A stretch of DNA of 64,000 bases, taken from positions 930,001 to 994,000 of the forward strand of contig NZ_CP102250.1 of assembly GCF_025144995.1 (NCBI RefSeq). Direction: 5' to 3'. Shown one piece after another: positions 10,538 through 22,596 of the stretch. The notes below the pieces were generated by a model. That model did no database searches and was not told the origin of the DNA. It worked only from the letters and a program-made list of their open reading frames with translations. The position numbers were made by a program, and so were the translations under genes. This DNA is from Alistipes indistinctus YIT 12060 (GTDB taxonomy: Bacteria > Bacteroidota > Bacteroidia > Bacteroidales > Rikenellaceae). How positions within the stretch are numbered: position 1 is the first letter of the stretch; every line of letters starts with the position of its first letter.

Positions 10538-10613
10538 GCGGAAATAGCTCAGTTGGTAGAGCACAACCTTGCCAAGGTTGGGGTCGCGAGTTCGAGTCTC
10601 GTTTTCCGCTCCA
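10538..10613 (+). tRNA. tRNA-Gly (anticodon GCC)
   Basis: The full cloverleaf is visible. Acceptor GCGGAAA pairs with TTTCCGC, the D-arm is GCTC..GAGC, the anticodon stem CAACC/GGTTG encloses loop TTGCCAA with anticodon GCC at 10571-10573, and the T-arm is GCGAG TTCGAGT CTCGT. The discriminator is T and CCA is encoded at 10611-10613. The 3' end of this tRNA is the integration site of the adjacent island. Confidence 0.97.
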
Positions 10614-10691
10614 GAGGCTAAGACAGCGAAAGACGCTGTCGCGCCAAAATCAGACAAAAACCCTTTGAAACGATGTTTCAGAGGGTTTTTT
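10600..10691 (+). repeat. left attachment-site repeat (attL) at tRNA-Gly
   Basis: This 92-bp stretch is identical to 21242-21333 (constant offset 10,642). It begins within the last 14 bases of the tRNA and continues through a small hairpin (GACAGCG/CGCTGTC at 10622-10640) and the following terminator. Weaker homology continues past it because both copies are followed by related integrase regions. The true crossover core is probably only part of the 92 bp. Confidence 0.85.
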
Positions 10692-10692
10692 T
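10656..10692 (+). terminator. intrinsic terminator after tRNA-Gly
   Basis: The stem AAAAACCCTTTGAAAC / GTTTCAGAGGGTTTTT has one G-T wobble, a three-base loop GAT and a final run of seven T. It lies inside the attachment repeat, so it separates the tRNA transcript from the integrase gene. Confidence 0.88.
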
Positions 10693-10754
10693 ATGCCCTC
10701 TCCCAAGACATCGCAGGACATCGAAAAGCCATTTCCGGACAACTTGGTGTCCCC

Positions 10755-10823
10755 AAAGTGTCCCACTCGCGTGGTGCAACCTAAAAGTGGGACACTTTAG
10801 ACGTAAGAGGTGGGACACTTTAG
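10755..10823. repeat. three copies of GTGGGACACTTT upstream of the integrase
   Basis: GTGGGACACTTTAG occurs at 10787-10800 and 10810-10823 in direct orientation, and its inverse AAAGTGTCCCAC at 10755-10766. The same arrangement, slightly diverged, lies before the broken integrase at 21397-21464. Repeated short sites near an att site and integrase promoter suggest arm-type integrase sites, an excisionase site or an operator. Confidence 0.65.
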
Positions 10824-10912
10824 CGTGCTATAATCTGACGGACAAATCATTACCAAGACTAAACTGTTTGACTCCGGTTTATCTAATCTTAATTAAATGA
10901 CAGGTAAACGGT

Positions 10913-12145
10913 ATGAAAAGTACATTCAGAATCCTATTCCTTGCGAGGTGGGAATTGAAGAAAGAAAACGGTAAAGTGCCCCTATGCGCACGGATTACCA
11001 TTGACGGCGAAAAGGTAAAGTTCAGCCTCAAAGCTGAGATATTCGGAAACCACTGGGATCCAAAATCAGGTAGAGCCAAGGGGCAAACAAAAGAAGCCCT
11101 GCAATTAAACCGCTACCTTGATAGCATCAAGGGGCAAATGATCATGCATTATCATAACCTCTCGGAGGCTAATGAGATCGTGACTGCCGCGATGGTGCGG
11201 GATGCTTTTCTCGGCACGAATATCAAAAGCAATACGCTGCTGACCGTGTTCGAAGAATTCAACGACCGGCAGGAAAAATTGATCGGTATTGACATCGCCC
11301 AATCCACCTTTAACAAATATGATCTGACCTATCGACGGCTGAAGGAATTCCTGAAAGTCAAGATGCGGAAAAACGATATCCTGCTTTGCCAGGTTGATCG
11401 CAATTTCGTAATGGACTTTGAAACGTGGTTGAAAACCGAATATAAACTCGACACCAACTCCTCGGAGAAACTGATGCGGATATTCAAACGCATTACTACC
11501 ATGTGCTTCAAGAATGGCCAGATGCCGCGAGATCCATTTTGTGACCATAAACTCAAAAAAGTAAAGAAAGATCGCGGCTATCTGACCAGAACCGAACTGG
11601 AAAAGATTATCGATTTCAAACCCGATAGTAAGCGGCTCGAAAAGGTGCGCGACATCTTTCTGTTCTGCTGCTTTACCGGCTACGATTATTCGACAACTGC
11701 TGCCCTTACTGACAAGGAATTGGTCATGGACGATGATGGGCACGAATGGATCGACACCCATCGCATCAAAACAGGTACACCTTCAAAGGTCAAGCTTCTC
11801 GACATTCCTCTAACCATTTTGAAGAAGTACGAACTCAAGCGTGATGGCAATTACCTCCTCCCGGTAATGAGTAACGCCAAGTACAATCTATATCTGAAAG
11901 AAATTGCGGCAGCCTGCGGAATTGAAAAGCGTGTGACCTCGCATCTCGCTAGGCACACGTTCGCCACTACCGTTACTTACGCCAACGGGGTCTCTATCGA
12001 ATCCATCAGCAAGATGCTCGGCCATACTAAAATCAGCACCACCCAGATCTACGCCCGGATCGTCGACAAGACCATCAACGACGAGATGGACAAGCTGGCG
12101 CAAAAACTCGGAAACACGAAGTTCAGTCTTCAGGGAAACCGGTAA
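10913..12145 (+). CDS. tyrosine recombinase (site-specific integrase)
   Basis: A 410-residue integrase of the Bacteroidetes mobile-element type. Residues 1-90 form an arm-type DNA-binding domain, about 105-215 a SAM-like core-binding domain and about 230-400 the catalytic domain. Catalytic residues are visible: His344 and Arg347 in HLARHTFA, His371 in LGHTKIS and the nucleophile Tyr380 in TQIYARI. The usual first Arg is replaced in CCFTGYDYSTT, as is known for IntDOT-like Bacteroides integrases. It lies 299 bases after tRNA-Gly, reading away from it, the standard position for an element integrase. A closely related broken copy lies at 21522-22596. It probably excises and integrates the 10.6-kb element. 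Confidence 0.93.
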   Translation: MKSTFRILFLARWELKKENGKVPLCARITIDGEKVKFSLKAEIFGNHWDPKSGRAKGQTKEALQLNRYLDSIKGQMIMHYHNLSEANEIVTAAMVRDAFLGTNIKSNTLLTVFEEFNDRQEKLIGIDIAQSTFNKYDLTYRRLKEFLKVKMRKNDILLCQVDRNFVMDFETWLKTEYKLDTNSSEKLMRIFKRITTMCFKNGQMPRDPFCDHKLKKVKKDRGYLTRTELEKIIDFKPDSKRLEKVRDIFLFCCFTGYDYSTTAALTDKELVMDDDGHEWIDTHRIKTGTPSKVKLLDIPLTILKKYELKRDGNYLLPVMSNAKYNLYLKEIAAACGIEKRVTSHLARHTFATTVTYANGVSIESISKMLGHTKISTTQIYARIVDKTINDEMDKLAQKLGNTKFSLQGNR

Positions 12146-12313
12146 AACGATGCTGTGGAAATGTGTCCGTATAAATCGACTGCAATCGACCGCCGATCAA
12201 AGAATATTAAAAAAATCGATTCTTTTCAACCTTTTTCTTTTAAGGTGACCTATTCGCTATTGTAACCTTTCCCGTGAAAGGCGAAAGGAGTATTTATCGA
12301 AAAAAGATCGATT

Positions 12314-13192
12314 ATGAATGAAAATGTATCGCAAGCTTTCGAGCAGATGATCGAACGGCAGTCACAAAAGAAATGCATCCGCAACGGCATTGTCGTATAC
12401 GGTGCGTCGAGCGCCCGTAAATTCCGCTACCTCAGGGATTCCCTGAAACGGTTCTCGGAAACGGTCCTCTGCCGGGACTTCGAAACCTTGACTTTCACCG
12501 ATATCGACAGCGGATTCCTGCAACGGTATGTGAGCCATTTACAAGGCCGCAACGTCGCAGAAAAAATCCGAAAGCTGAAACAAATCTTCCGTTCTGCACA
12601 TGCCGGTACCGAGGTTTTCGATCCGGTCGAGGCCATCCCTGCGGTTCGGAAAACAACAGACCCGTTCATTCCCTATTCAGAGATTGTCCGGATCAGGGAA
12701 ATGGAGCGGAGCGGCCTTACGAACAAAGAGTCGTTCTGCCTGGATCTATTCCTGTTCGGATTCTATTCCGGCGGCTCGTCGGTCGCGGAGATGGCCGCAC
12801 TCCGGGAAGAAAACGTACATGGTGATTATCTCTGTTGCGAACGGACAGGCTGCTCGGGGACAGCCCGGATTCCGCTGAACAAATATGCCAAAGCGATCCT
12901 TCGGAAATACCGGAAAGACGGCTTTGGGGATTACCTGCTGCCTGTATTTACTCATAAACACCTTTCTTCAGAACAGCAGCAGGGCCGGATCAAACGGATA
13001 ACCGAGCAGACGAACGGGTTGATGAAAGAGATCGCCCGCAAACTACAGTTGGAATGCGAACTTACTTTGGGTATGACAAGGCGCATTTTTATCGAACACA
13101 TGCTCGCCTGTCGGATGCCGCTCGAAACGATCGCAGAAGTTACCGGATGTACCCTCGATACCATCATCCGTTATCTTGAAAAACATAAGTAA
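12314..13192 (+). CDS. degenerate tyrosine-recombinase-like protein
   Basis: A 292-residue protein with a SAM-like domain (ARKFRYLRDSLKRF) followed by a recombinase catalytic-domain fold. It aligns by eye with the C-terminal three quarters of the protein at 13664-14932, for example in the ARKxRYL segment and the LDLFLF segment. It lacks an arm-type domain. In the catalytic box the usual HxxRH is GMTRR, and the later LGH is TGC, so both histidines are missing, although an Arg and a C-terminal Tyr (IIRYLEKHK) remain. It may be an accessory DNA-binding factor, a recombinase using a different active-site set, or a decaying copy. The frame is intact, which argues against simple decay. Confidence 0.75.
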   Translation: MNENVSQAFEQMIERQSQKKCIRNGIVVYGASSARKFRYLRDSLKRFSETVLCRDFETLTFTDIDSGFLQRYVSHLQGRNVAEKIRKLKQIFRSAHAGTEVFDPVEAIPAVRKTTDPFIPYSEIVRIREMERSGLTNKESFCLDLFLFGFYSGGSSVAEMAALREENVHGDYLCCERTGCSGTARIPLNKYAKAILRKYRKDGFGDYLLPVFTHKHLSSEQQQGRIKRITEQTNGLMKEIARKLQLECELTLGMTRRIFIEHMLACRMPLETIAEVTGCTLDTIIRYLEKHK

Positions 13193-13300
13193 GATAAAGC
13201 CCATGGATATACCGTATTTTCTGCCGGGGGTGCACTTACAGTAAAACGGGTCGAAAAGCAGGACGTTTACTGTATATCTGAAAATGAAGAAATTCAAAAT

Positions 13301-13335
13301 AAAAAAGGTGAGCCACGGAAAGGGTCACCTTTTTC
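13301..13335 (+). terminator. intrinsic terminator after the second recombinase-like gene
   Basis: AAAAAGGTGA (13302-13311) and TCACCTTTTT (13325-13334) pair across a 13-base loop and end in a T run. It lies in the 471-base gap 13193-13663, which holds no convincing gene. The only other structure seen there is the inverted repeat at 13629-13659. Confidence 0.75.
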
Positions 13336-13628
13336 ATTTGTATGTTCCTGACTCCCTAGATATATCGGGAATGTGTCATATTCCATTAAAAATCAATCCA
13401 TTATATAATCTGGGGTTGTTTCAGTCTTGTATATTTACATCGTTCGTATCTTCAAAAAGACATTTAGTATTCACATTCAGCACACAACTAATAAATAATC
13501 AACACATTAAATCATAATATTACTAACGGCCGATCCAAAAGCAAAATTACCCGCAGGAACCGGTCTTCGAAACTGTAACGGATATATTTTTGCCTCGTCT
13601 TTCAGATAGCCGAGAGTAAACGACAAAC

Positions 13629-13659
13629 GGTATTTTAAGCCGAAATTACTTAAAATACC
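13629..13659. promoter_or_regulatory. 11-bp inverted repeat just before a recombinase gene
   Basis: GGTATTTTAAG (13629-13639) and CTTAAAATACC (13649-13659) are perfect inverted arms with a 9-base spacer, ending four bases before the ATG at 13664. It could be an operator or translation-control hairpin. Arms of 11 bp around a short spacer also resemble the core sites of tyrosine recombinases. Confidence 0.6.
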
Positions 13660-13663
13660 AATT

Positions 13664-14932
13664 ATGTTTACAGTCAACATCAAAGGGCGGAGGGATTCGA
13701 AGAACATCGAACTGGTCAAACTCGACCTGATTTTTTACAAGCGCGGATATGCCCGCGTTTCAAAAGTGCTCCGCATCACGGGACTCTACCGGGAATGGGA
13801 TCGAAAGAGCCAGTCGTTCATCGGAACGGATGCGGCCGAAAAGAACAAACTGCTCCGGCAGGAAAAACTCAGATACCTGAAGATCGCGGAGAAATGGGAG
13901 TATCAGGGCAAAGATTGGATTCCTGTCGAGTTATCCCATTATTACGATGACGATCCCCGGGTCAGAAACCGGTATATTACCGTCTCAGAGACGATCGACA
14001 CCATGGCGGAAAGAACGGCTGCCCGGAAACGATACAAGAACGGACTGATACTGACAAGCGAGCCGACAGCCCGAAAATATCGCTATCTGAAAACTTCGCT
14101 CGAACGGTTTACCCGTAGCAAATATCACAGGGACTTCTCGAAATACCGATTCCGGGACATCACGGAGCAGTTCTTGCTCGATTATACGCTTTGGACACAG
14201 GTTTACGGCGGAAAGAAAGGAAACAACGGCGGCATCCGGGAAAAGCTCCGGAAACTGCGGGCGGTCTGCCTGTATGCCAAAGAAACCGGTGTCTACAATG
14301 TCAATCCGAATGCGTTTCGTCCTCTGCAGGAGAAACTAAAACCACGCCTTGTCACTCCTAAAGGCGTTTCCCCTGAAATCATCCGCAGGATCGAAACGTT
14401 CGATCGGTCAGGTCTCGATAAAAAGGAACCGTTTTATCTCGATCTGTTCCTGTTCAGCTACTATGCCGGCGGAATGTCGGCCATCGATGTTTGCTTGCTG
14501 ACAAGGGATCGGATAAAGGACGATATGATCGTCTACGACCGTACGAAATTCGATAAGCAGGCACGGGTAATCCTGACCGACAAAGCGATCGGGATCATCG
14601 ACCGTTACCGTGATGCCGCGTATATGAATTATGTTTTTCCGACGATCAAACGGTGCAATCCGACACAAGCGAAACTTTATGGCCGGGTCAAGCGGATCAA
14701 CGAGAAAGTTAACCGGACGCTGAAGAAAATCTGCGACCTTTCCGGCATCGGCCAACGGGTCACATGGAGCACTGCCCGCAGCAGTTACATCTCCCGCATG
14801 ATCGACGAGGGATTCCATCCGCTTCAGGTCGCCGAGCTCGCAGGAAACTCTCCACAAACCATCTACAGGCATTATTACACCATCTCGGACAAAGAAAAAA
14901 TGAAAGAAAAGATGAACCGAATATTTGAATAA
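13664..14932 (+). CDS. tyrosine-recombinase-like protein with altered active site
   Basis: A 422-residue protein with the layout of an integrase: an arm-type N-terminal domain (residues 1-90), a SAM-like domain (about 130-220) and a catalytic domain (about 240-415). The second catalytic box reads TWSTARSSYIS, with the Arg kept but His replaced by Trp. The LGH box reads AGNSPQT, without His, and Tyr residues remain in IYRHYY. It is paralogous to the shorter protein at 12314-13192. Three recombinase-type genes in a row recall recombinase-in-trio arrangements, but these are spaced by 168 and 471 bases rather than overlapping, and only the first has canonical histidines. Family membership is sure; activity is uncertain. 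Confidence 0.8.
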   Translation: MFTVNIKGRRDSKNIELVKLDLIFYKRGYARVSKVLRITGLYREWDRKSQSFIGTDAAEKNKLLRQEKLRYLKIAEKWEYQGKDWIPVELSHYYDDDPRVRNRYITVSETIDTMAERTAARKRYKNGLILTSEPTARKYRYLKTSLERFTRSKYHRDFSKYRFRDITEQFLLDYTLWTQVYGGKKGNNGGIREKLRKLRAVCLYAKETGVYNVNPNAFRPLQEKLKPRLVTPKGVSPEIIRRIETFDRSGLDKKEPFYLDLFLFSYYAGGMSAIDVCLLTRDRIKDDMIVYDRTKFDKQARVILTDKAIGIIDRYRDAAYMNYVFPTIKRCNPTQAKLYGRVKRINEKVNRTLKKICDLSGIGQRVTWSTARSSYISRMIDEGFHPLQVAELAGNSPQTIYRHYYTISDKEKMKEKMNRIFE

Positions 14933-15000
14933 AATTTCTATTTACATTATTTTTATTTTTGAAAATACTACATGAAATATATATATTCTTATCGCACTAC

Positions 15001-16866
15001 TTATCTTATTGAAACCAATGTTTCTAAATATCTTATATTTTCCGCTCTTGTTTTAGATTTGTAATTGAGACGCAGGCAGACATCTTCTATTTTCTGGCAA
15101 AAGATATCTGCAGAAAGCATAGACATTCTGAGTTCGTTATCTTCTCGGAAAGTCGTATGCCATTGCGCATTATCATCTAACGGATGTTCTGGCCTGAAGG
15201 GATTTATATTAAATATCTTATGGTCGATTTGTGTAATCCAAGAGGCTCCTACTTCTGTAATTGCACCCCATGATGCTTTTGTATTTTCACTTGTAACAAA
15301 AAGAACAAATATTTTTTGGGCCGAATAACTTTCAACAAAAAAATCTTTTAAATAGTCATAAACCGAACTACCTTCAGGGACTCTGCAAACTTCATCATCA
15401 CAGTTCGTGTACAAAATATCTTCTGCCGGTACATTATTGAACAATAGTAATTGGAAAATAATATCGGCGAGAGGTTTATCTTGATAGGTTTGGCTAATTA
15501 GAATCTTCTTTTTTTGTGAATTGACAATAGCTTTTAGACCTAAATCTGGAGCATTACTATTAATTGAGTCGGACACTGCTTTTTCAATCGTTTCGCGGGA
15601 AACATCGGCGCCTGCCTTTCGAATATTTTCCGCCGCACCTTTACTTGCATTATTACGAAAATCATCAATCTCTTTCTTCAGTTCTTCTTCTTTTTGCTTC
15701 AGATTCGCTTCTGCTGCTTTTTTCTTTTCTGCATTATTTAGATCTGTAAATATTTCCCTTTTCCTTAATATAGCCGGCAATAAATCTTTTCGAACATATT
15801 CCACTACCGCCTCATATCTCGGATCGTCCGATTTATACCCTTGACGATTACTCAAAGCCATATCGGGAAGTTCAGATAATTCGAATAAATCGACATGTAA
15901 TTGTCCAACGACGTAAACTTCATTCAGTTTGTTTTGTCCAACTATTGGTAATATATTAAATTCCCCCATTTTCTTATTAGCATACAGGGAAATAAAATTG
16001 TCAGGAAAATCTGTCATCTCGGCTTTCCGACCTCGTGTCGATCTATATGTACCGATCCAACCGACAATCTCAAGCGGGTATTCCCGGATCGTTCCTTCAT
16101 TGTTTTTTACAGATACCGATGTCCTAAACGGGGGACGAGACTCTATCAAATCATATCTTCTATCGGGAAATTCTGTCGGGACTAAATCGCATAAACTAGA
16201 ATATTCATCACCCAAAGATATAAGAGTATTCAGTTCATTCATAATATTTTCATCGAAACGATCGACAACCTCGTATTCTTGCCCTCTAATTATATGTATC
16301 TTAAAATCGCTACCGACTAAAGGAAAAATTTTCAATAGATTTCTCTTAACAGCATATAGTCCCTTGTGCAATCTATATTGTGGATTTTTCATAACGATAG
16401 CCGTTCCATGATTTTCAATCCGGCTAAATATAACATCGTTATCGTCTATCGCTTGTAGTTTATTGCCATCTATAGGCCTTCGGGCAAGAACGAATCCAGA
16501 TTTTTCTCCATTCTCAATAGTCAAAACATTGACACATTCAGAAACAGATAGTGCGGCAAGTTTACCGACTCCTTTTCGCCCCATTTTTTTGCGAGTTCCC
16601 GCCTTAGTGTATGAGTCGTCTTCTCCGATACGAGAAATCCCGGCAACATTCAAGAATTTATTTATGTCGCCTTTTTCATAAGACATTCCATGTCCGTCGT
16701 CTTCAACGCGAATATCGTCTTGATTGGAGATAATATATACATTTTCAGCATCTGCGTCGTATGCATTAGCGATAAGTTCGGCTAATACATAATATATATT
16801 CGAATATAAATTCGGACCCAATAATTCCAAGATACGAGGATCTACATTTAAGCTATATTCTTTCAT
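15001..16866 (-). CDS. GHKL (Hsp90/MutL-type) ATPase fused to a C-terminal TIR domain
   Basis: A 621-residue protein. Residues 1 to about 200 form a Bergerat ATP-binding fold: ELIANAYDADA (Glu30, Asn34, Asp37) is the N box, DDGHGM (57-61) the first glycine box, and GRKGVGK (96-102) the lid motif. A middle region runs to about 370, then an Ala/Lys/Glu-rich coiled-coil segment to about 430. From about 452 a TIR domain starts (KKILISQTYQDKPLAD), with DILYTNC, VPEGSSVYDYL and then TSENTKASW...TEVGASW. Glu538 sits at the catalytic Glu position of bacterial TIR NADases. Inference: ATP-dependent sensing or clamping coupled to NAD-depleting or signal-making TIR activity. It is co-directional with vsr (77 bases apart) and AT-rich like the rest of the cassette. 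Confidence 0.85.
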   Translation of the reverse strand: MKEYSLNVDPRILELLGPNLYSNIYYVLAELIANAYDADAENVYIISNQDDIRVEDDGHGMSYEKGDINKFLNVAGISRIGEDDSYTKAGTRKKMGRKGVGKLAALSVSECVNVLTIENGEKSGFVLARRPIDGNKLQAIDDNDVIFSRIENHGTAIVMKNPQYRLHKGLYAVKRNLLKIFPLVGSDFKIHIIRGQEYEVVDRFDENIMNELNTLISLGDEYSSLCDLVPTEFPDRRYDLIESRPPFRTSVSVKNNEGTIREYPLEIVGWIGTYRSTRGRKAEMTDFPDNFISLYANKKMGEFNILPIVGQNKLNEVYVVGQLHVDLFELSELPDMALSNRQGYKSDDPRYEAVVEYVRKDLLPAILRKREIFTDLNNAEKKKAAEANLKQKEEELKKEIDDFRNNASKGAAENIRKAGADVSRETIEKAVSDSINSNAPDLGLKAIVNSQKKKILISQTYQDKPLADIIFQLLLFNNVPAEDILYTNCDDEVCRVPEGSSVYDYLKDFFVESYSAQKIFVLFVTSENTKASWGAITEVGASWITQIDHKIFNINPFRPEHPLDDNAQWHTTFREDNELRMSMLSADIFCQKIEDVCLRLNYKSKTRAENIRYLETLVSIR

Positions 16867-16943
16867 AAGAAGTTGTAAACGAAAAGAAAACTCTATTTAT
16901 TTTTTGTTTAAATTTAAATGTTATTAGCCGAATCCCCAATTAT

Positions 16944-17357
16944 TTATTGCTTTATTTCTTCGACCAACCTCTCCAATCGCTGTTTTCGACTTTCAATATT
17001 TTTTATCTCACATTGCCAGACGATCAATACTTTCCATTCGAGAGCTTCAATTTGCTCGATCTTTTTTCTATCTCGTATGATATTTCCTTCTAATTTTTCA
17101 TTCCAGTATGCTTCGTTCGATTGCGGTCTTCGTCCGGCACGACAATCGTGTCCATGCCAGAAGCAACCGTTTACGAATACTACTGTCTTATATTTAGGTA
17201 AAACAATATCTGGAGACCCGGGAAGCCTTCTGTCATTTTTACGATACCTGAACCCGGCTGCAAATAAATATTTCCGTACAACTAACTCTGGTTTCGTGTC
17301 TTTTTGATTTACCAGAGACATTATCTTAGAACGCGAGCTCTTATTCCAGATATCCAT
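16944..17357 (-). CDS. vsr: very short patch repair endonuclease (Vsr)
   Basis: A 137-residue Vsr-family endonuclease, the normal length. The family pattern is clear: DIWNKSSRSKIMS at the start, DTKPELVVRKYLFAAGFRYR, GSPDIVLPKYKTVVFVNGCFWHGHDC with the catalytic Asp of PDIV and the conserved His/Cys residues, and a later VLIVWQCEI strand. Vsr nicks next to T:G mismatches created by deamination of 5-methylcytosine, so it usually accompanies a cytosine-5 methyltransferase, as here: the methyltransferase gene is divergent 119 bases away. It is transcribed together with the GHKL-TIR gene. Confidence 0.95.
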   Translation of the reverse strand: MDIWNKSSRSKIMSLVNQKDTKPELVVRKYLFAAGFRYRKNDRRLPGSPDIVLPKYKTVVFVNGCFWHGHDCRAGRRPQSNEAYWNEKLEGNIIRDRKKIEQIEALEWKVLIVWQCEIKNIESRKQRLERLVEEIKQ

Positions 17358-17431
17358 ATTTTCAATACTTTAAATCGCATCTAAGTTAAGAATTTTACTC
17401 GTCACTGTCAATTTATACTCGAATCTTTTAT

Positions 17432-17439
17432 TAACTTTG
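17432..17439 (+). promoter_or_regulatory. -7 element before the cytosine methyltransferase gene
   Basis: TAACTTTG fits TAnnTTTG and lies 37 bases before the start codon at 17477, in the 119-base divergent gap with vsr. No clear -33 element is seen. Confidence 0.5.
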
Positions 17440-17476
17440 TGAAAAAGATTGGATAGAGTTTTATATAAAGTATTGT

Positions 17477-18547
17477 ATGATACGGCGTAACGACATAGGT
17501 GTGGTCGATTTGTTTTGTGGGGTAGGTGGACTCAGCTTCGGAATGAAGAAACGAGGATTCAATATTATAGCAGGTTTCGATACGGATACGACATGTAAAT
17601 ATGCATACGAGACGAATAACGAATCGCAGTTTATTTCCCAGGATGTTCGTGAAGTAACAGGAGAGCAAATAAAAGCATTATTCGGCGATCATAAAATTAA
17701 GATATTAGCGGGGTGTGCACCCTGTCAACCTTTTTCTTCCTATGCATTTAAAGTCAAGAAAAAAGATCAGACGAAATATACACTATTATATCATTTCGGA
17801 AGGCTTATAAAAGAGGTCCAACCGGATATCGTTACGATGGAGAACGTTTCACAGATTTTATCTTTTAAACAAAAGCCGGTATTTAATGATTTTGTTGCAA
17901 AATTAGAAAGATTAGGATATAAAGTAAAGTACCAAGTCGTATACTGTCCTGATTATGGAATACCTCAAACTCGAAAAAGATTAGTCTTACTCGCTTCGAG
18001 ATTTGGAGAAATCGAACTTATAAAACCGACGCATACTCCTGATCAATATGTAACAGTGGAACAAACTATAGGCAATCTTCCTCCATTAGTCGCCGGAGAA
18101 ACCGATAAAAAGGATTCTTTGCACAGGGCTAGAGCTCTATCGCCATTAAATATGGAGCGTATGAGAGCCACACCTTATGGAGGAAGCTGGAAAGATTGGC
18201 CGATTCATTTACAGCTCGAATGTCATAAACGAGAATCGGGACAATCGTTCGGAAGCGTTTATGGAAGAATGAAATGGGACGCGCCGGCACCGACTATGAC
18301 AACGTTATGCACAGGCATCGGAAACGGCAGATTCGGACATCCTACTCAGGATCGAGCGATATCTTTACGCGAAGCCGCACTCTTCCAAACATTTCCTAAA
18401 GGATATAGCTTTTTCGCCCCAGACGAGAATATCTCTATCTCGAAAGCATCTCGTTATATCGGAAATGCAGTACCGCCAACCTTGGGCAAGATTACAGCAG
18501 ATAGTATTATTCGTCATTTAAAACGATTTAAACTTATCGATAAGTAA
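17477..18547 (+). CDS. DNA (cytosine-5-)-methyltransferase
   Basis: A 356-residue m5C methyltransferase. Motif I is DLFCGVGGLSFGM (residues 11-23), motif IV is GCAPCQPFS with catalytic Cys83, motif VI is MENVSQI, motif VIII is GIPQTRKRLVLLASR, and motif X is IGNAVPPTLGK at the C-terminus. The variable target-recognition region lies between motifs VIII and IX and does not reveal the recognised sequence by eye. Its neighbours Vsr and a possible nuclease make it the modification half of a putative restriction-modification system. The region is clearly more AT-rich than the flanking chromosome, consistent with transfer. Confidence 0.95.
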   Translation: MIRRNDIGVVDLFCGVGGLSFGMKKRGFNIIAGFDTDTTCKYAYETNNESQFISQDVREVTGEQIKALFGDHKIKILAGCAPCQPFSSYAFKVKKKDQTKYTLLYHFGRLIKEVQPDIVTMENVSQILSFKQKPVFNDFVAKLERLGYKVKYQVVYCPDYGIPQTRKRLVLLASRFGEIELIKPTHTPDQYVTVEQTIGNLPPLVAGETDKKDSLHRARALSPLNMERMRATPYGGSWKDWPIHLQLECHKRESGQSFGSVYGRMKWDAPAPTMTTLCTGIGNGRFGHPTQDRAISLREAALFQTFPKGYSFFAPDENISISKASRYIGNAVPPTLGKITADSIIRHLKRFKLIDK

Positions 18548-18592
18548 ACGAGTCTACTAATTGCGATAAGAGTTTATCATTAAAGTTAATAC

Positions 18593-20236
18593 ATGATGCA
18601 AGATGCAGGAGCTGAATTAGTTGATATCATAAAATCGGAGAAGAACTTTATTGACAAAAAAATTGCGGTCAACAATACCCCATTTCTTTTTATAGATCTT
18701 ATTAAAGCCATTGATTACTATTGGCTTTGTCCATATGAAAATAAGGATAATTTTGAAGGTTTTATTCAATATGGATTTCCTGTTTTTTTAAAACAGTTCT
18801 ATTTGACTAGCAATTTTAAAGCGGATTCCCTCCCGATCCATCATTCTTCTTCCGATTCTTTGTCTTTTTGCCATTATTATTTATGGATGTATGGAAAATG
18901 CAAATTATTGGAGCGATATGTAAGACTAGCCTCTCAAAAGGAGGTTTCGATTGCGCGAAATACCCCTACCGAATTCACTATAGAGGCAGATTCATGTCAT
19001 TTAGAATATGTAGAGAATAGATCTCTTGATGAGTACTTTAAAGTAATCAGAGAGTCTGTTTTAAAAAATAAGATTGCGGATTTAGATAAAATTAATAACC
19101 TAATCCTCAAGTCTTTAGATAGCAGAGTAGAGGCCTGGAAAAAGGATTATATCAGATATGATAGCAGTCCGGATATTGACGATTATTATTATCAGACCGG
19201 ATATGTCGCACTGGCTACTTCTCAACTATATGACGACTTTAATGATGATTTCACATTCGGAAATATAACATACAAACACATATTAGATGTAATCCAATCC
19301 GTAATGGGAGTAGCTCTTAAACACATTGATGCATGTATGTTGTTATTAGATAAGTCTCCTCAAACGAAGATATACAATATTTTATCAATACCATTTTTGC
19401 CCGAGGAACTTTATTCCTCATATTCAAATTATTTGGGCATAGATAAGGATGAAGTAAAACAAATTTTTGATTTACTGATCGTTTCACCAGAAAATATCGA
19501 CGACCATTTGAGTTCCGAGAAGGATTTCTCTCCTCCGTTCATTAAGATTGGTAATAAATTTATATACAGATCGATTAAGGGGTGTTTGAGATCGCCTGTA
19601 TTATTTGTTCAAAATGAATTAAAACGAAAATATCCAAAGGACTATTTTCGATGGATTAATGAAAGAGAAAAGATTTTTAGAGACCAATTATACAACCTCT
19701 TTAGTTCGGATCGATTTATAAAAGTAAATAGAAATATCGAAATTAACTCGAATGGAATCAGAACCGATATAGATGCGGCGATATTCGACACACAAACAAA
19801 ATCTTTGAGTATATTCCAATTAAAATGGCAAGATAAATTTGCATCGGACATGCAGGCTAGAAAAAGCCGAATTGCAAATTTTTACCCCAAAGCTAAAGAA
19901 TGGATTGATAAAATCGATTCTTGGAAATCAGAAAATACTTCCAAGAACATACTCAGTGCCCTAAATATAAAAGGCAATGATATCTCTGTAATTTATTTAT
20001 TTGTTATAGGGCGATATAACACTCATTTCAGCAATCAAGAAATTGACAAACGTGCTGCGTGGGGGTCATGGTATCATGTTGTAGAACTAATGCATAAGAT
20101 CAGGACTAATTTCGACAATCCCGTTCAAGAGCTACATTTTAAATTGCAATTAGACTCTCCAATGAATAAAAAATTGGATGTTACTACGGAAAAGCTTGAA
20201 TTCTCAAACTATTTGATAACATGGAACTATAAATGA
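18593..20236 (+). CDS. uncharacterised protein with PD-(D/E)XK-like motif, putative restriction nuclease
   Basis: A 547-residue protein that I do not recognise as a whole. It is Lys-, Asp- and Ile-rich and AT-rich, with no signal peptide or membrane segment. Residues 392-412 read TDIDAAIFDTQTKSLSIFQLKW: an acidic residue on one strand (Asp392 or Asp394) followed after 14-16 residues by QLK, the pattern of a PD-(D/E)XK nuclease core with Gln in place of Glu. A basic segment (KRKYPKDYFRWINEREKIFRDQLYNLF) precedes it. It starts 45 bases after the methyltransferase stop on the same strand, where a restriction enzyme would be expected. The restriction role is inference from position and this short motif. 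Confidence 0.6.
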   Translation: MMQDAGAELVDIIKSEKNFIDKKIAVNNTPFLFIDLIKAIDYYWLCPYENKDNFEGFIQYGFPVFLKQFYLTSNFKADSLPIHHSSSDSLSFCHYYLWMYGKCKLLERYVRLASQKEVSIARNTPTEFTIEADSCHLEYVENRSLDEYFKVIRESVLKNKIADLDKINNLILKSLDSRVEAWKKDYIRYDSSPDIDDYYYQTGYVALATSQLYDDFNDDFTFGNITYKHILDVIQSVMGVALKHIDACMLLLDKSPQTKIYNILSIPFLPEELYSSYSNYLGIDKDEVKQIFDLLIVSPENIDDHLSSEKDFSPPFIKIGNKFIYRSIKGCLRSPVLFVQNELKRKYPKDYFRWINEREKIFRDQLYNLFSSDRFIKVNRNIEINSNGIRTDIDAAIFDTQTKSLSIFQLKWQDKFASDMQARKSRIANFYPKAKEWIDKIDSWKSENTSKNILSALNIKGNDISVIYLFVIGRYNTHFSNQEIDKRAAWGSWYHVVELMHKIRTNFDNPVQELHFKLQLDSPMNKKLDVTTEKLEFSNYLITWNYK

Positions 20237-20432
20237 TTTTGAGTTAAAATAAAATCATTGTTCGAAAAACTTAATACCTTAACTCAAAGGGTTGTGAATG
20301 ATGCAGAATTGCATCGGATTATGGATATGCTGCAGGCAAAATGATATCAAACTTCTTTTTGAAGAAAAGAAATAGTCAGCCCTCCCTTGTGTAGTAGCGC
20401 TTTAGTTAACCACAATAAAAAGGGAATAATAA

Positions 20433-20462
20433 ATTTGTCCGAATTTTAAAATTCGGACAAAT
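20433..20462. promoter_or_regulatory. 30-bp perfect palindrome
   Basis: ATTTGTCCGAATTTT is followed directly by its exact reverse complement. It lies in the 354-base gap 20237-20590 between the putative nuclease and the HTH gene, about 130 bases before the latter. It lacks a T run, so it looks more like an operator or cruciform site than a terminator. Apart from it, nothing convincing is seen in this gap. Confidence 0.6.
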
Positions 20463-20590
20463 AATACGGTGTACTTTAGTATATGCGACAAACATTTTCA
20501 CTTTATTCTCCTATTTCTTTATGTAACGATTGACTGAAGAATGGTTGTAAAGTGATTTGCATTAGATTTTCCGGTAAGCAATTTTGCAAA

Positions 20591-20953
20591 ATGGAGGTAA
20601 TAACTATTGAGTCGAAGGCTTTTAGGCAGCTGATGGAGAAACTGGATGCATTGTCCGATTATGTAAGTTCGTTGAAACCTCCGGTGGAGAATGAGGATGA
20701 AAGTTGGGTGGATAGTCACGATATCTGCGATTTCCTGAAGATAAGCGAACGGACACTGCAACGACTGAGGACGAATGGAAAGATTTCGTATACCAATCTC
20801 GGCGGGAAGTATTACTATCGGATCAGTCAGGTTAAAAAACTGCTGAAGGAGAACATAATTAAAAGTACCGAAGAACACTTCCATGAATTAGCTGAGCACC
20901 ATAAGCGCCATAGTTTCGACCGGGATCCCGAGAAAAACACCGCACTTAAGTAA
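20591..20953 (+). CDS. helix-turn-helix protein, excisionase/MerR-like
   Basis: A 120-residue small DNA-binding protein. The start MEVITIESKAFRQLMEKL matches a family common on Bacteroidetes mobile elements, so the inner start at 20591 is preferred over the longer frame from 20552. Residues about 43-85 form a winged HTH of the HTH_17 type (SHDICDFLKISERTLQRLRTNGKI, then YYRISQVKKLL). Such proteins serve as excisionases or regulators of element transfer. Its position near the right end of the element fits a role in excision or in controlling element genes. Confidence 0.82.
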   Translation: MEVITIESKAFRQLMEKLDALSDYVSSLKPPVENEDESWVDSHDICDFLKISERTLQRLRTNGKISYTNLGGKYYYRISQVKKLLKENIIKSTEEHFHELAEHHKRHSFDRDPEKNTALK

Positions 20954-21049
20954 TTTGTAAAACAATTATTGAAAAGCAATAATCAAAAGATTATAATCGT
21001 AAAACAATAATTAACGACATAGGCCATCCCTCATGACTCATTTCCCCTA

Positions 21050-21080
21050 TTTGTGATATCGGGAATAACCGTTATCTTTG
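21050..21080 (+). promoter_or_regulatory. consensus promoter near the right end of the element
   Basis: TTTG (21050-21053), a 19-base spacer and TATCTTTG (21073-21080) form a full Bacteroidetes promoter pointing into the right attachment repeat. No gene starts between it and the terminator copy at 21298-21333. In the gap 20954-21521 I otherwise see only AT-rich sequence, the repeat and the short motif cluster. Confidence 0.65.
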
Positions 21081-21241
21081 CATTGTAAACCGAAGAAAAA
21101 CAGTCTTGGCGAGGTTAACCACCGTCAGAAATAGGTTTCGGTAAATGTCCCCACTGGTGTCTCATTATGCAAGTTGAACCCAGTGAAGTCAAAGGGAAGT
21201 CATTGATGAGCAATACATAAGGAAGGCGGAGGTCAGACTCC

Positions 21242-21333
21242 CGTTTTCCGCTCCAGAGGCTAAGACAGCGAAAGACGCTGTCGCGCCAAAATCAGACAAA
21301 AACCCTTTGAAACGATGTTTCAGAGGGTTTTTT
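21242..21333 (+). repeat. right attachment-site repeat (attR)
   Basis: A perfect 92-bp copy of 10600-10691, starting with the last 14 bases of the tRNA-Gly 3' end and containing the same hairpin and terminator. No complete tRNA precedes it: only a T-arm-like fragment is seen, so this is a junction and not a second tRNA gene. Confidence 0.85.
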
Positions 21334-21396
21334 CATGCCTTCTCCGAAGACTTCGCAAGACATCCGAAAGCCGTTTTCAGACACCTTGGCATCCCA

Positions 21397-21464
21397 AAAG
21401 TGTCCCCACCGGTTCGATATGAACCTAAAATGGGACACTTTGAGAAAAAAGGTGGGACACTTAG
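21397..21464. repeat. diverged copies of the GTGGGACACTTT motif
   Basis: AAAGTGTCCCCAC (from 21397), TGGGACACTTTGAG (21431-21444) and GTGGGACACTTAG (21452-21464) repeat the order and orientation seen before the intact integrase. Their conservation while the integrase decayed supports a real binding site. Confidence 0.6.
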
Positions 21465-21521
21465 GCTTTTTTCAAACTGTTCTTCAACGATTTACCTAAT
21501 CTGAATAACAGGTAAACAGTT

Positions 21522-22596
21522 ATGAAAAGCACATTCAGAATCTTATTCCTCGCGAGGTGGGAATTGAAGAAAAAAATGGCAAGGTGCCCCTCTGCGCACG
21601 GATTACCATCGACGGCGAAAGAGTGAAGTTCAGCCTCAAAAGCGAGGTAACCGCAAAAATCTGGGACCCGAAGTCCGGCAGAGCAACAGTACAGACAAAA
21701 GAGGCACTTCAGCTCAACCGCTATCTCGACAGCATCAAGGGGCAAATGATATGCACTATCATAGCCTCTCGGAAGCTAACGAAGTCGTGACTGCCTCGAT
21801 GATGCGGGGTGCTTTCCTCGGCACGAATATCAAAAGCAATACGCTGCTGACCGTGTTCGAGGAATTCAACGACCGACAGGAAAAACTAATCGGCATCGAC
21901 CTCGCTCAGTCCACTTTCAATAAGTATGACCTGACCTACCGTCGGCTCAAGGAATTCTTGAAAGTCAAAATGCAGAAGAACGATATTTTGCTCTACCAAT
22001 TAGATCGGAATTTCGTTATAGATTTTGAGACATACCTGAAAACCGAGTATAAGCTGGATACAAACTCTTCCGAAAAGCTGATGCGGATTTTCAAGCGCAT
22101 CACGACTATGTGCTTCAAGAACGGCCAGATGTCTAAAGATCTCTTCTGTGACCACAAACTCAAAAAAGTCAAGAAAGATCGCGGGTATCTCACCAAAGCA
22201 GAACTTGAAAGTATCATCGACTATAAGCCGGATAACAAGCGTCTCGAAAAAGTTCGCGACATTTTCCTGTTTTGCTGCTTTACCGGCTACGATTATTCCA
22301 CTACCGCCGCCCTGACCGACAAAGATTTGGTCGCCGACGATGACGGCGCCCTCTGGATCGATACCCACCGGATAAAGACCAAAACTGCGGCAAAGGTCAA
22401 ACTCCTCGATATTCCGCTATCCATCATCAAAAAGTACGAGCGTAAACGGGACAGCATTTTTTTACTGCCGGTTATGAGTAACGCCAAGTATAATTTCTAC
22501 CTGAAAGAGATTGCAAGTATCTGTGGAATAGAGAAAAACGTCACCTCGCATCTTGGCCGGCACACTAACTACTTAACAGAGTTAAGAGTTCTGTAG
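21522..22596 (+). pseudogene. broken tyrosine recombinase, relative of the intact integrase
   Basis: The nucleotide sequence tracks the intact integrase (10913-12145) closely from its ATG. A one-base deletion near 21549 shifts the frame, and a second near 21749 shifts it again. Homology stops abruptly at about 22565, just after HLGRHT, where sequence unlike the integrase begins and a stop follows at 22594. The second catalytic His and the nucleophile Tyr are therefore lost and the protein cannot act as a recombinase. It marks the left end of an older, mostly deleted element. Confidence 0.9.

Follow-up and report, generated by a model that had tools for sequence, protein, structure and literature searches.

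A candidate restriction-modification-like defense module of Alistipes indistinctus with a TIR domain in place of the nuclease

What would set off a TIR effector that is joined to a GHKL (Bergerat-fold) ATPase, and why would such a protein be encoded beside a cytosine methyltransferase? This question is raised by a gene from Alistipes indistinctus YIT 12060 that lies in the 64,000 nucleotides of NZ_CP102250.1 (positions 930,001 to 994,000) that we analyzed, which we refer to as the window. The first-pass annotation of the window considered this gene alone and missed two adjoining genes, one for a Vsr endonuclease and one for a C5-methyltransferase, that supply most of the clues to function. The relevant features, in window coordinates, are:

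10538-10613: tRNA-Gly
10594..10764, plus strand: left direct repeat of an island, which begins in the 3' end of the tRNA-Gly
10913-12145, 12314-13192, and 13664-14932, plus strand: three tyrosine recombinases in a row, on the island that carries the module
15001..16866, minus strand: gene for the GHKL-S5-TIR protein, 621 amino acids (ATPase module, residues 5-378; long helices, 349-442; TIR, 450-621)
15001..15519, minus strand: TIR domain, residues 450-621, a predicted NADase (SpbK matches; invariant E538/G540/W543)
15253-15255, minus strand: codon of the predicted catalytic Glu538
15733..16854, minus strand: GHKL+S5 ATPase module, residues 5-378 (NF050001 match and fold alignment to MORC3)
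16944..17357, minus strand: Vsr-type T:G mismatch endonuclease, accessory (TIGR00632, 6.6e-43)
17477..18547, plus strand: C5-cytosine DNA methyltransferase, which makes the predicted self mark (PF00145, 7.8e-63)
18593..20236, plus strand: 547-amino-acid protein with a D..QxK (PD-(D/E)xK-like) motif, a neighbor that is not conserved with the module
21236..21406, plus strand: right direct repeat of the island, 91% identical to 10594-10764

In the list of open reading frames, the GHKL-S5-TIR gene reads from 16866 to 15001 on the minus strand, with an ATG start and 621 codons plus a stop. The first-pass annotation had its extent exactly right but did not state the strand, which is minus. We rejected a plus-strand reading of 15001-16866, as the plus strand is full of stops there and has no open reading frame. 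The Vsr gene is 77 bases upstream on the same strand, and the methyltransferase gene is divergent from the Vsr gene.

The island is flanked by the two copies of a 171-base direct repeat, and its GC content is about 35-47%, versus 53-60% to its left. The trio of recombinases (10913-14932) resembles recombinase-in-trio arrangements. We also note that 10538-22596 contains tandem left ends, each with the 171-nt repeat and then a related integrase; the second (21751-22596) is truncated.

The two halves of the protein

Residues 4-410 match NF050001, the NCBIfam family of BbrUII/HgiDII type II restriction enzymes (3.3e-64), and the TIR half has no match. The score of 217.6 bits misses the 550 bits required for membership because the second half of the protein does not match. 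HATPase_c_3 from Pfam matches as well (7.9e-17). The ATPase motifs are where the first-pass annotation placed them: the N box (E30/N34/D37), the G1 box (EDDGHGM, 55-61), the G2 box (GRKGVGK, 96-102), and the GT at 154-155. In our alignment of 29 relatives, E30, N34, D37, D56, G58, G60, G99, G101, and G154 are invariant.

An AlphaFold2 model of the whole protein, built from 25 relatives, was of moderate confidence (pLDDT 69, pTM 0.53). Residues 5-378 of the model align to MORC3 (VIA-align, Z of 16.7 over 290 residues), and the nearest folds are MORC3, MORC4, and MORC2 (Z of 16-17), ahead of Hsp90. The alignment to the MORC3 ATPase (GHKL+S5) places an S5 domain after the GHKL domain. The model makes this half a MORC-type GHKL+S5 ATPase, and a long helix (residues 349-418) connects it to the TIR domain; by sequence, the homolog of this half is the ATPase half of the BbrUII/HgiDII restriction enzymes. 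The earlier label of a MutL/Hsp90-like clamp is weaker than BbrUII by sequence and weaker than MORC by fold. Eukaryotic MORC ATPases dimerize upon binding ATP and can clamp DNA. Activation by DNA or by ATP-driven dimerization, as was suggested in the first pass, is the direction in which the evidence points.

The fold search with the whole protein returned the ATPase half alone, so we built a separate model of the TIR part, again with moderate confidence (pLDDT 70, pTM 0.70). Its best fold match is SpbK (Foldseek, 9.3e-7; VIA, Z of 10.3 over 139 residues). The lower matches are PdTIR, MyD88, TcpB, STING-TIR, the TIR-APAZ of SPARTA, and SARM1, mixed with flavodoxin-like proteins at Z of 8-9. 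The TIR part also matches SpbK in PADLOC (5.6e-18), and SpbK is the only match in PDB to a profile of 24 TIR segments (2.2e-15). Profiles, motifs, and folds all bear out the original description of a TIR effector joined to a GHKL ATPase, and the predicted structure, with SpbK as its best match, removes the earlier concern that the C-terminal fold might not be TIR.

SpbK is a demonstrated NADase: the mutants N191R, G194R, and W197A lose both NADase activity and defense, and E192 has been modeled as touching NAD+ (PMC12847820). It takes a minimum of two TIRs to form one active site of a TIR NADase (PMC12847820). In our sequence alignment, E192, G194, and W197 of SpbK correspond to E538, G540, and W543, which are invariant across the 29 relatives. 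The TIR pattern that the first pass pointed out (S526-E527-N528, W533, and E538) is present, and S526 and W533 are each kept in 28 of the 29. Because the positions of the catalytic Glu and of the αC Gly and Trp of SpbK are invariant in this family, we predict that this is an SpbK-type TIR with NADase activity, and we consider this a strong prediction. The first TIR loop is Q459-T-Y-Q-D463, instead of Hx[ST]xD; the His of that motif is present in 10 of the 29 aligned relatives (such as HASKD in L014).

The methyltransferase partner and the exchange of effectors

Our genome scan identified 32 relatives of the GHKL-TIR protein, most of them at 49-72% identity, from Bacteroidota, Fibrobacterota, Verrucomicrobiota/Kiritimatiellota, Pseudomonadota, Campylobacterota, Thermodesulfobacteriota, Bacillota, and one Methanofastidiosia archaeon. 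As viral contigs yielded just one relative (L081), this is mostly a gene of cells or islands. One relative (L021:9001-10871) is split by a frameshift; the order there, with a divergent Dcm and then Vsr and GHKL-TIR, is as in the window.

We clustered all of the genes within 4.5 kb of the relatives in 25 non-redundant loci outside of DISARM. A C5-methyltransferase is present in all 25 loci, Vsr is present in 9, and any other gene is present in at most 2. (The methyltransferase cluster includes a fusion of Vsr and methyltransferase, which joins both labels.) No nuclease recurs beside GHKL-TIR in these loci. Since the methyltransferase alone is constant, the minimal module is the methyltransferase and GHKL-TIR, without a nuclease. 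Six loci lack an adjacent methyltransferase: five of these genomes contain a member of the family elsewhere (one is a partial match at a contig edge), and in the sixth, a fragmentary MAG, the contig begins partway through the gene. Separately, L015 (5008-6840), L017, and L020 contain a Vsr-C5-methyltransferase fusion of 610 amino acids, about 1-2 kb upstream of the module's methyltransferase.

We considered the 547-amino-acid protein as the module's restriction enzyme and rejected it, as it is missing from the relatives' loci. It has no match in Pfam or PDB and no relative on viral contigs. Its single distant relative (28%; L088:7533-9224, minus strand) is in a locus with neither a methyltransferase nor a GHKL gene, and D..QxK and AAWGSW are conserved between the two proteins. 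The gene is probably a passenger defense gene, and its product may be a nuclease, not described before, that acts in a stand-alone defense.

We searched Bacteroidota genomes for the restriction-enzyme family, as well as plasmids and phages. In the proteins that we found, the common ATPase half is joined to a D..ExK nuclease (L064-L068, L082, L084, and L085), in which R, D, G, H, and K residues are invariant; to a Ymh HEPN C-terminus (L074:5072-6706 and L076:4871-6583); to a probable HEPN C-terminus with RDAMAH, as judged by eye (L072:5277-6965); or to other types of nucleases (L070, L077, and L078). Most of these fusions adjoin a C5-methyltransferase, including the nuclease versions L066, L068, L082, L084, and L085 and the Ymh versions L074 and L076. 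The C-terminus of L074 also matches PD-Lambda-3_B. Predicted RNase (HEPN) fusions of paraMORC were already on record (PMC3710099). L082 is the P2-like coliphage PhiR44_1, which carries, as paired cargo, a BbrUII-family enzyme (annotated as ParaMORC3) together with a Dcm (PV340563.1 6021-9069). In the window protein, a TIR domain stands in place of the nuclease half of a BbrUII/HgiDII-type enzyme.

In a tree of the ATPase halves, the GHKL-TIR proteins form one clade (support of 99/100), and its stem is long (4.2 changes per column). In a tree of the methyltransferases, the partners of the TIR versions are not one group and are interleaved with the partners of the nuclease versions. For example, the partner of L066, which is a full BbrUII-family enzyme, is nested among TIR partners, in a group that is supported (96/92). 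This implies that either methyltransferases were passed between the two versions or the effector was swapped while the methyltransferase stayed.

In C5-methyltransferases, the target is set by the region between motifs VIII and IX. In all 138 pairs of a TIR partner with a nuclease partner, this recognition region is no less similar than the core (mean of 55.5% versus 47.7%). In controls against other methyltransferases, the pattern is reversed (28.4% for the recognition region versus 31.4% for the rest). The methyltransferase partners within DISARM have the same recognition-region pattern, and the adjacent methyltransferase in the window has the recognition region that is common to BbrUII-type partners. 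Because conservation of the recognition region equals or exceeds that of the core, the methyltransferases of the TIR and nuclease versions probably share one DNA target. If the target is constant, then a protein that is about 70% identical across phyla could function alongside methyltransferases whose identity is only about 50%. M.HgiDII is a 5mC enzyme for GTCGAC, and M.BbrUII is a 5mC enzyme (PMC5867850). We predict that GTCGAC is probably the mark of the window's methyltransferase. This genome does not avoid GTCGAC (895 sites, versus 598 of the reversed word), which fits with protected sites but discriminates nothing.

Seven of the relatives are inside DISARM operons; class 1 genes are present at five of these loci (L003, L004, L005, L009, and L010), and the other two are partial (L028 and L032). 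The complete loci have the order DrmD, DrmMI, GHKL-TIR, DrmA, DrmB, DrmC, with a DrmMII-like methyltransferase outside. At L064:3913-10500, a BbrUII-type GHKL-nuclease and Vsr are in a row with DrmA-DrmB-DrmC; both the TIR and the nuclease versions accompany DISARM genes. Among the window's open reading frames, none of DrmA, DrmB, DrmC, DrmD, or DrmMI is beside the module. Two other arrangements in these operons are that DrmA and DrmB are fused in one frame of 1917 codons downstream of GHKL-TIR (L032:1779-7532), and that an AspBHI-like/Mrr restriction gene, which by its family targets modified cytosine, is between GHKL-TIR and DrmA (L010:10884-12083) in an operon that also has a C5-methyltransferase.

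Proposed mechanism and alternatives

We favor, with moderate confidence, the idea that this is a restriction-modification-like anti-phage module whose nuclease has been exchanged for an NADase and which is fired by unmethylated DNA. We propose this because the ATPase half is a homolog of restriction enzymes, the methyltransferase partner is constant, and the effectors exchange; and because DISARM, another methylation-linked defense, holds both GHKL-TIR (seven loci) and GHKL-nuclease (one locus).

The C5-methyltransferase (17477-18547) would mark the host's DNA, probably at the site of M.BbrUII/M.HgiDII (GTCGAC), and a dimer of the MORC-like GHKL-S5 module would inspect DNA. DNA that lacks the mark would lead to ATP-dependent closure of the dimer, and closure would bring the C-terminal SpbK-type TIRs together via the long helices. 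The paired TIRs would form a composite active site (with Glu538) and cleave NAD+, and the loss of NAD+ would arrest the infected cell ahead of phage maturation. Vsr would mend the T:G mismatches that arise from deamination of methylated cytosine.

We give roughly even chances to a broader proposal: that there is one restriction-modification scaffold, comprising a C5-methyltransferase and a GHKL-S5 sensor for the same DNA site, with a nuclease, a TIR NADase, or a HEPN-like domain as interchangeable outputs; that self-methylation gates a suicide enzyme; and that the sensor-effector also plugs into DISARM.

Some considerations argue against gating by methylation. SpbK senses a phage portal protein, so by analogy, an SpbK-type TIR need not be triggered by DNA. 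The long stem of the GHKL-TIR clade means that the trigger could have shifted after the clade diverged from the restriction enzymes. The window protein has Q-x-Y-x-D where some relatives carry Hx[ST]xD. Also, a suicide gene that is gated by methylation is hazardous during replication and transfer.

Alternatively, GHKL-TIR could be the suicide guard of a restriction-modification system or DISARM that cuts DNA: it would be blind to methylation and would fire when that system is inhibited or overrun, like PrrC and RloC. This would fit with the seven relatives within complete or partial DISARM operons, with the PrrC/RloC-like roles that were proposed for paraMORC-HEPN fusions (PMC3710099), and with the further possible nuclease at 18593-20236. 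However, in all 25 of the non-DISARM loci, there is no common nuclease to protect, and only the methyltransferase and GHKL-TIR are constant, so we consider a guard rather unlikely.

It seems distinctly unlikely that the GHKL half senses a phage protein and that the methyltransferase is an orphan or is otherwise employed. The nearest TIR relative with a known trigger is SpbK, whose N-terminal domain senses the phage portal protein YonE (PMC12847820). But the sensor half of our protein is the ATPase half of a restriction enzyme, not the N-terminal domain of SpbK, and a phage-protein trigger leaves the pairing with one family of methyltransferases, over several phyla and an archaeon, unexplained.

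The TIR domain might instead be a nuclease or an allosteric nucleotide- or nucleic-acid-binding site of an otherwise ordinary restriction-modification enzyme. A nuclease or allosteric site was suggested in 2008, before TIR NADases, in the paraMORC4 paper (PMC2292703), and the Hx[ST]xD loop is degenerate in the window protein. We think this quite improbable, as the sole match of the TIR profile is an NADase (SpbK), the catalytic Glu and the αC Gly and Trp are invariant, and there is no nuclease motif. That the TIR acts like Thoeris-type TIRs, which use NAD+ to make a signaling nucleotide and thereby switch on a separate effector, has that precedent but is very improbable, as there is no conserved effector gene nearby and the 547-amino-acid neighbor is private to the window's locus.

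If the module is indeed a methylation-gated NADase, then self/non-self discrimination by methylation, which is the oldest known bacterial immunity, would be coupled directly to suicide by a TIR NADase, and two fields that have been treated as separate would be joined. This would also explain the role of the GHKL-TIR protein in DISARM operons. The module would offer a two-gene system for how MORC-type ATPases read DNA and pass their state to a C-terminal domain, a question that is still open for eukaryotic MORC proteins. To a specialist, the parts are familiar, and the surprise would be a restriction system whose output is the loss of NAD+.

Comparison with known systems

GHKL-S5-TIR proteins in restriction-modification neighborhoods were described as paraMORC4 by Iyer, Abhiman and Aravind in 2008 (PMC2292703), so the architecture of the window protein is not new. 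As described there, paraMORC4 has the same order of domains and the same type of neighborhood, with a cytosine methyltransferase and Vsr. The window protein has the GHKL domain with all four ATP-binding motifs, the S5 domain, and the TIR, but it has QxYxD instead of Hx[ST]xD, a motif that the paper reports as highly conserved, not defining, in TIRs of this kind. We describe the window protein as paraMORC4-like rather than asserting that it is a member. Effector exchange with BbrUII-type enzymes, the common recognition region, and membership in DISARM are not given in the sections of that paper considered here.

To judge from the papers that we searched, the following appear to be new: the assignment of the TIR to the SpbK type, its catalytic residues being invariant; a minimal module of just two genes; interleaved methyltransferases that have a single recognition region; and the occurrence in DISARM loci. 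In the literature that we searched, which mostly did not cover subscription papers and preprints, we found no methylation-gated TIR system and no description of GHKL-TIR within DISARM.

The BbrUII/HgiDII enzymes (NF050001) have a homologous GHKL-S5 half, an adjacent C5-methyltransferase of the same kind, and often Vsr, as in the window, but their C-terminus is a D..ExK nuclease instead of a TIR. The paraMORC3 of phage PhiR44_1 scores as a member of this family. SpbK, from ICEBs1 of Bacillus subtilis, shares the type of TIR, the catalytic Glu, and the αC Gly and Trp with the window protein, and both are on integrative elements. SpbK detects the phage portal with a four-helix sensor, while the window protein carries a MORC-like ATPase and is partnered by a methyltransferase. 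Class 1 DISARM (DrmD-DrmMI-DrmA-DrmB-DrmC) encloses seven of the relatives, while the window's module has no DISARM genes beside it; PADLOC, in the form used here, does not list GHKL-TIR as a DISARM component. In VcSduA, a Shedu protein with a GHKL N-terminal domain, a GHKL ATPase controls a C-terminal effector in phage defense, as we propose here; in the part of that paper considered here, the effector is a PD-(D/E)xK nuclease and no methyltransferase partner is described (PMC12137116), whereas the window has a TIR and a methyltransferase. Finally, type II restriction-modification systems cleave DNA at a site that their cognate methyltransferase protects, while the module in the window has no nuclease domain and is predicted not to cut.
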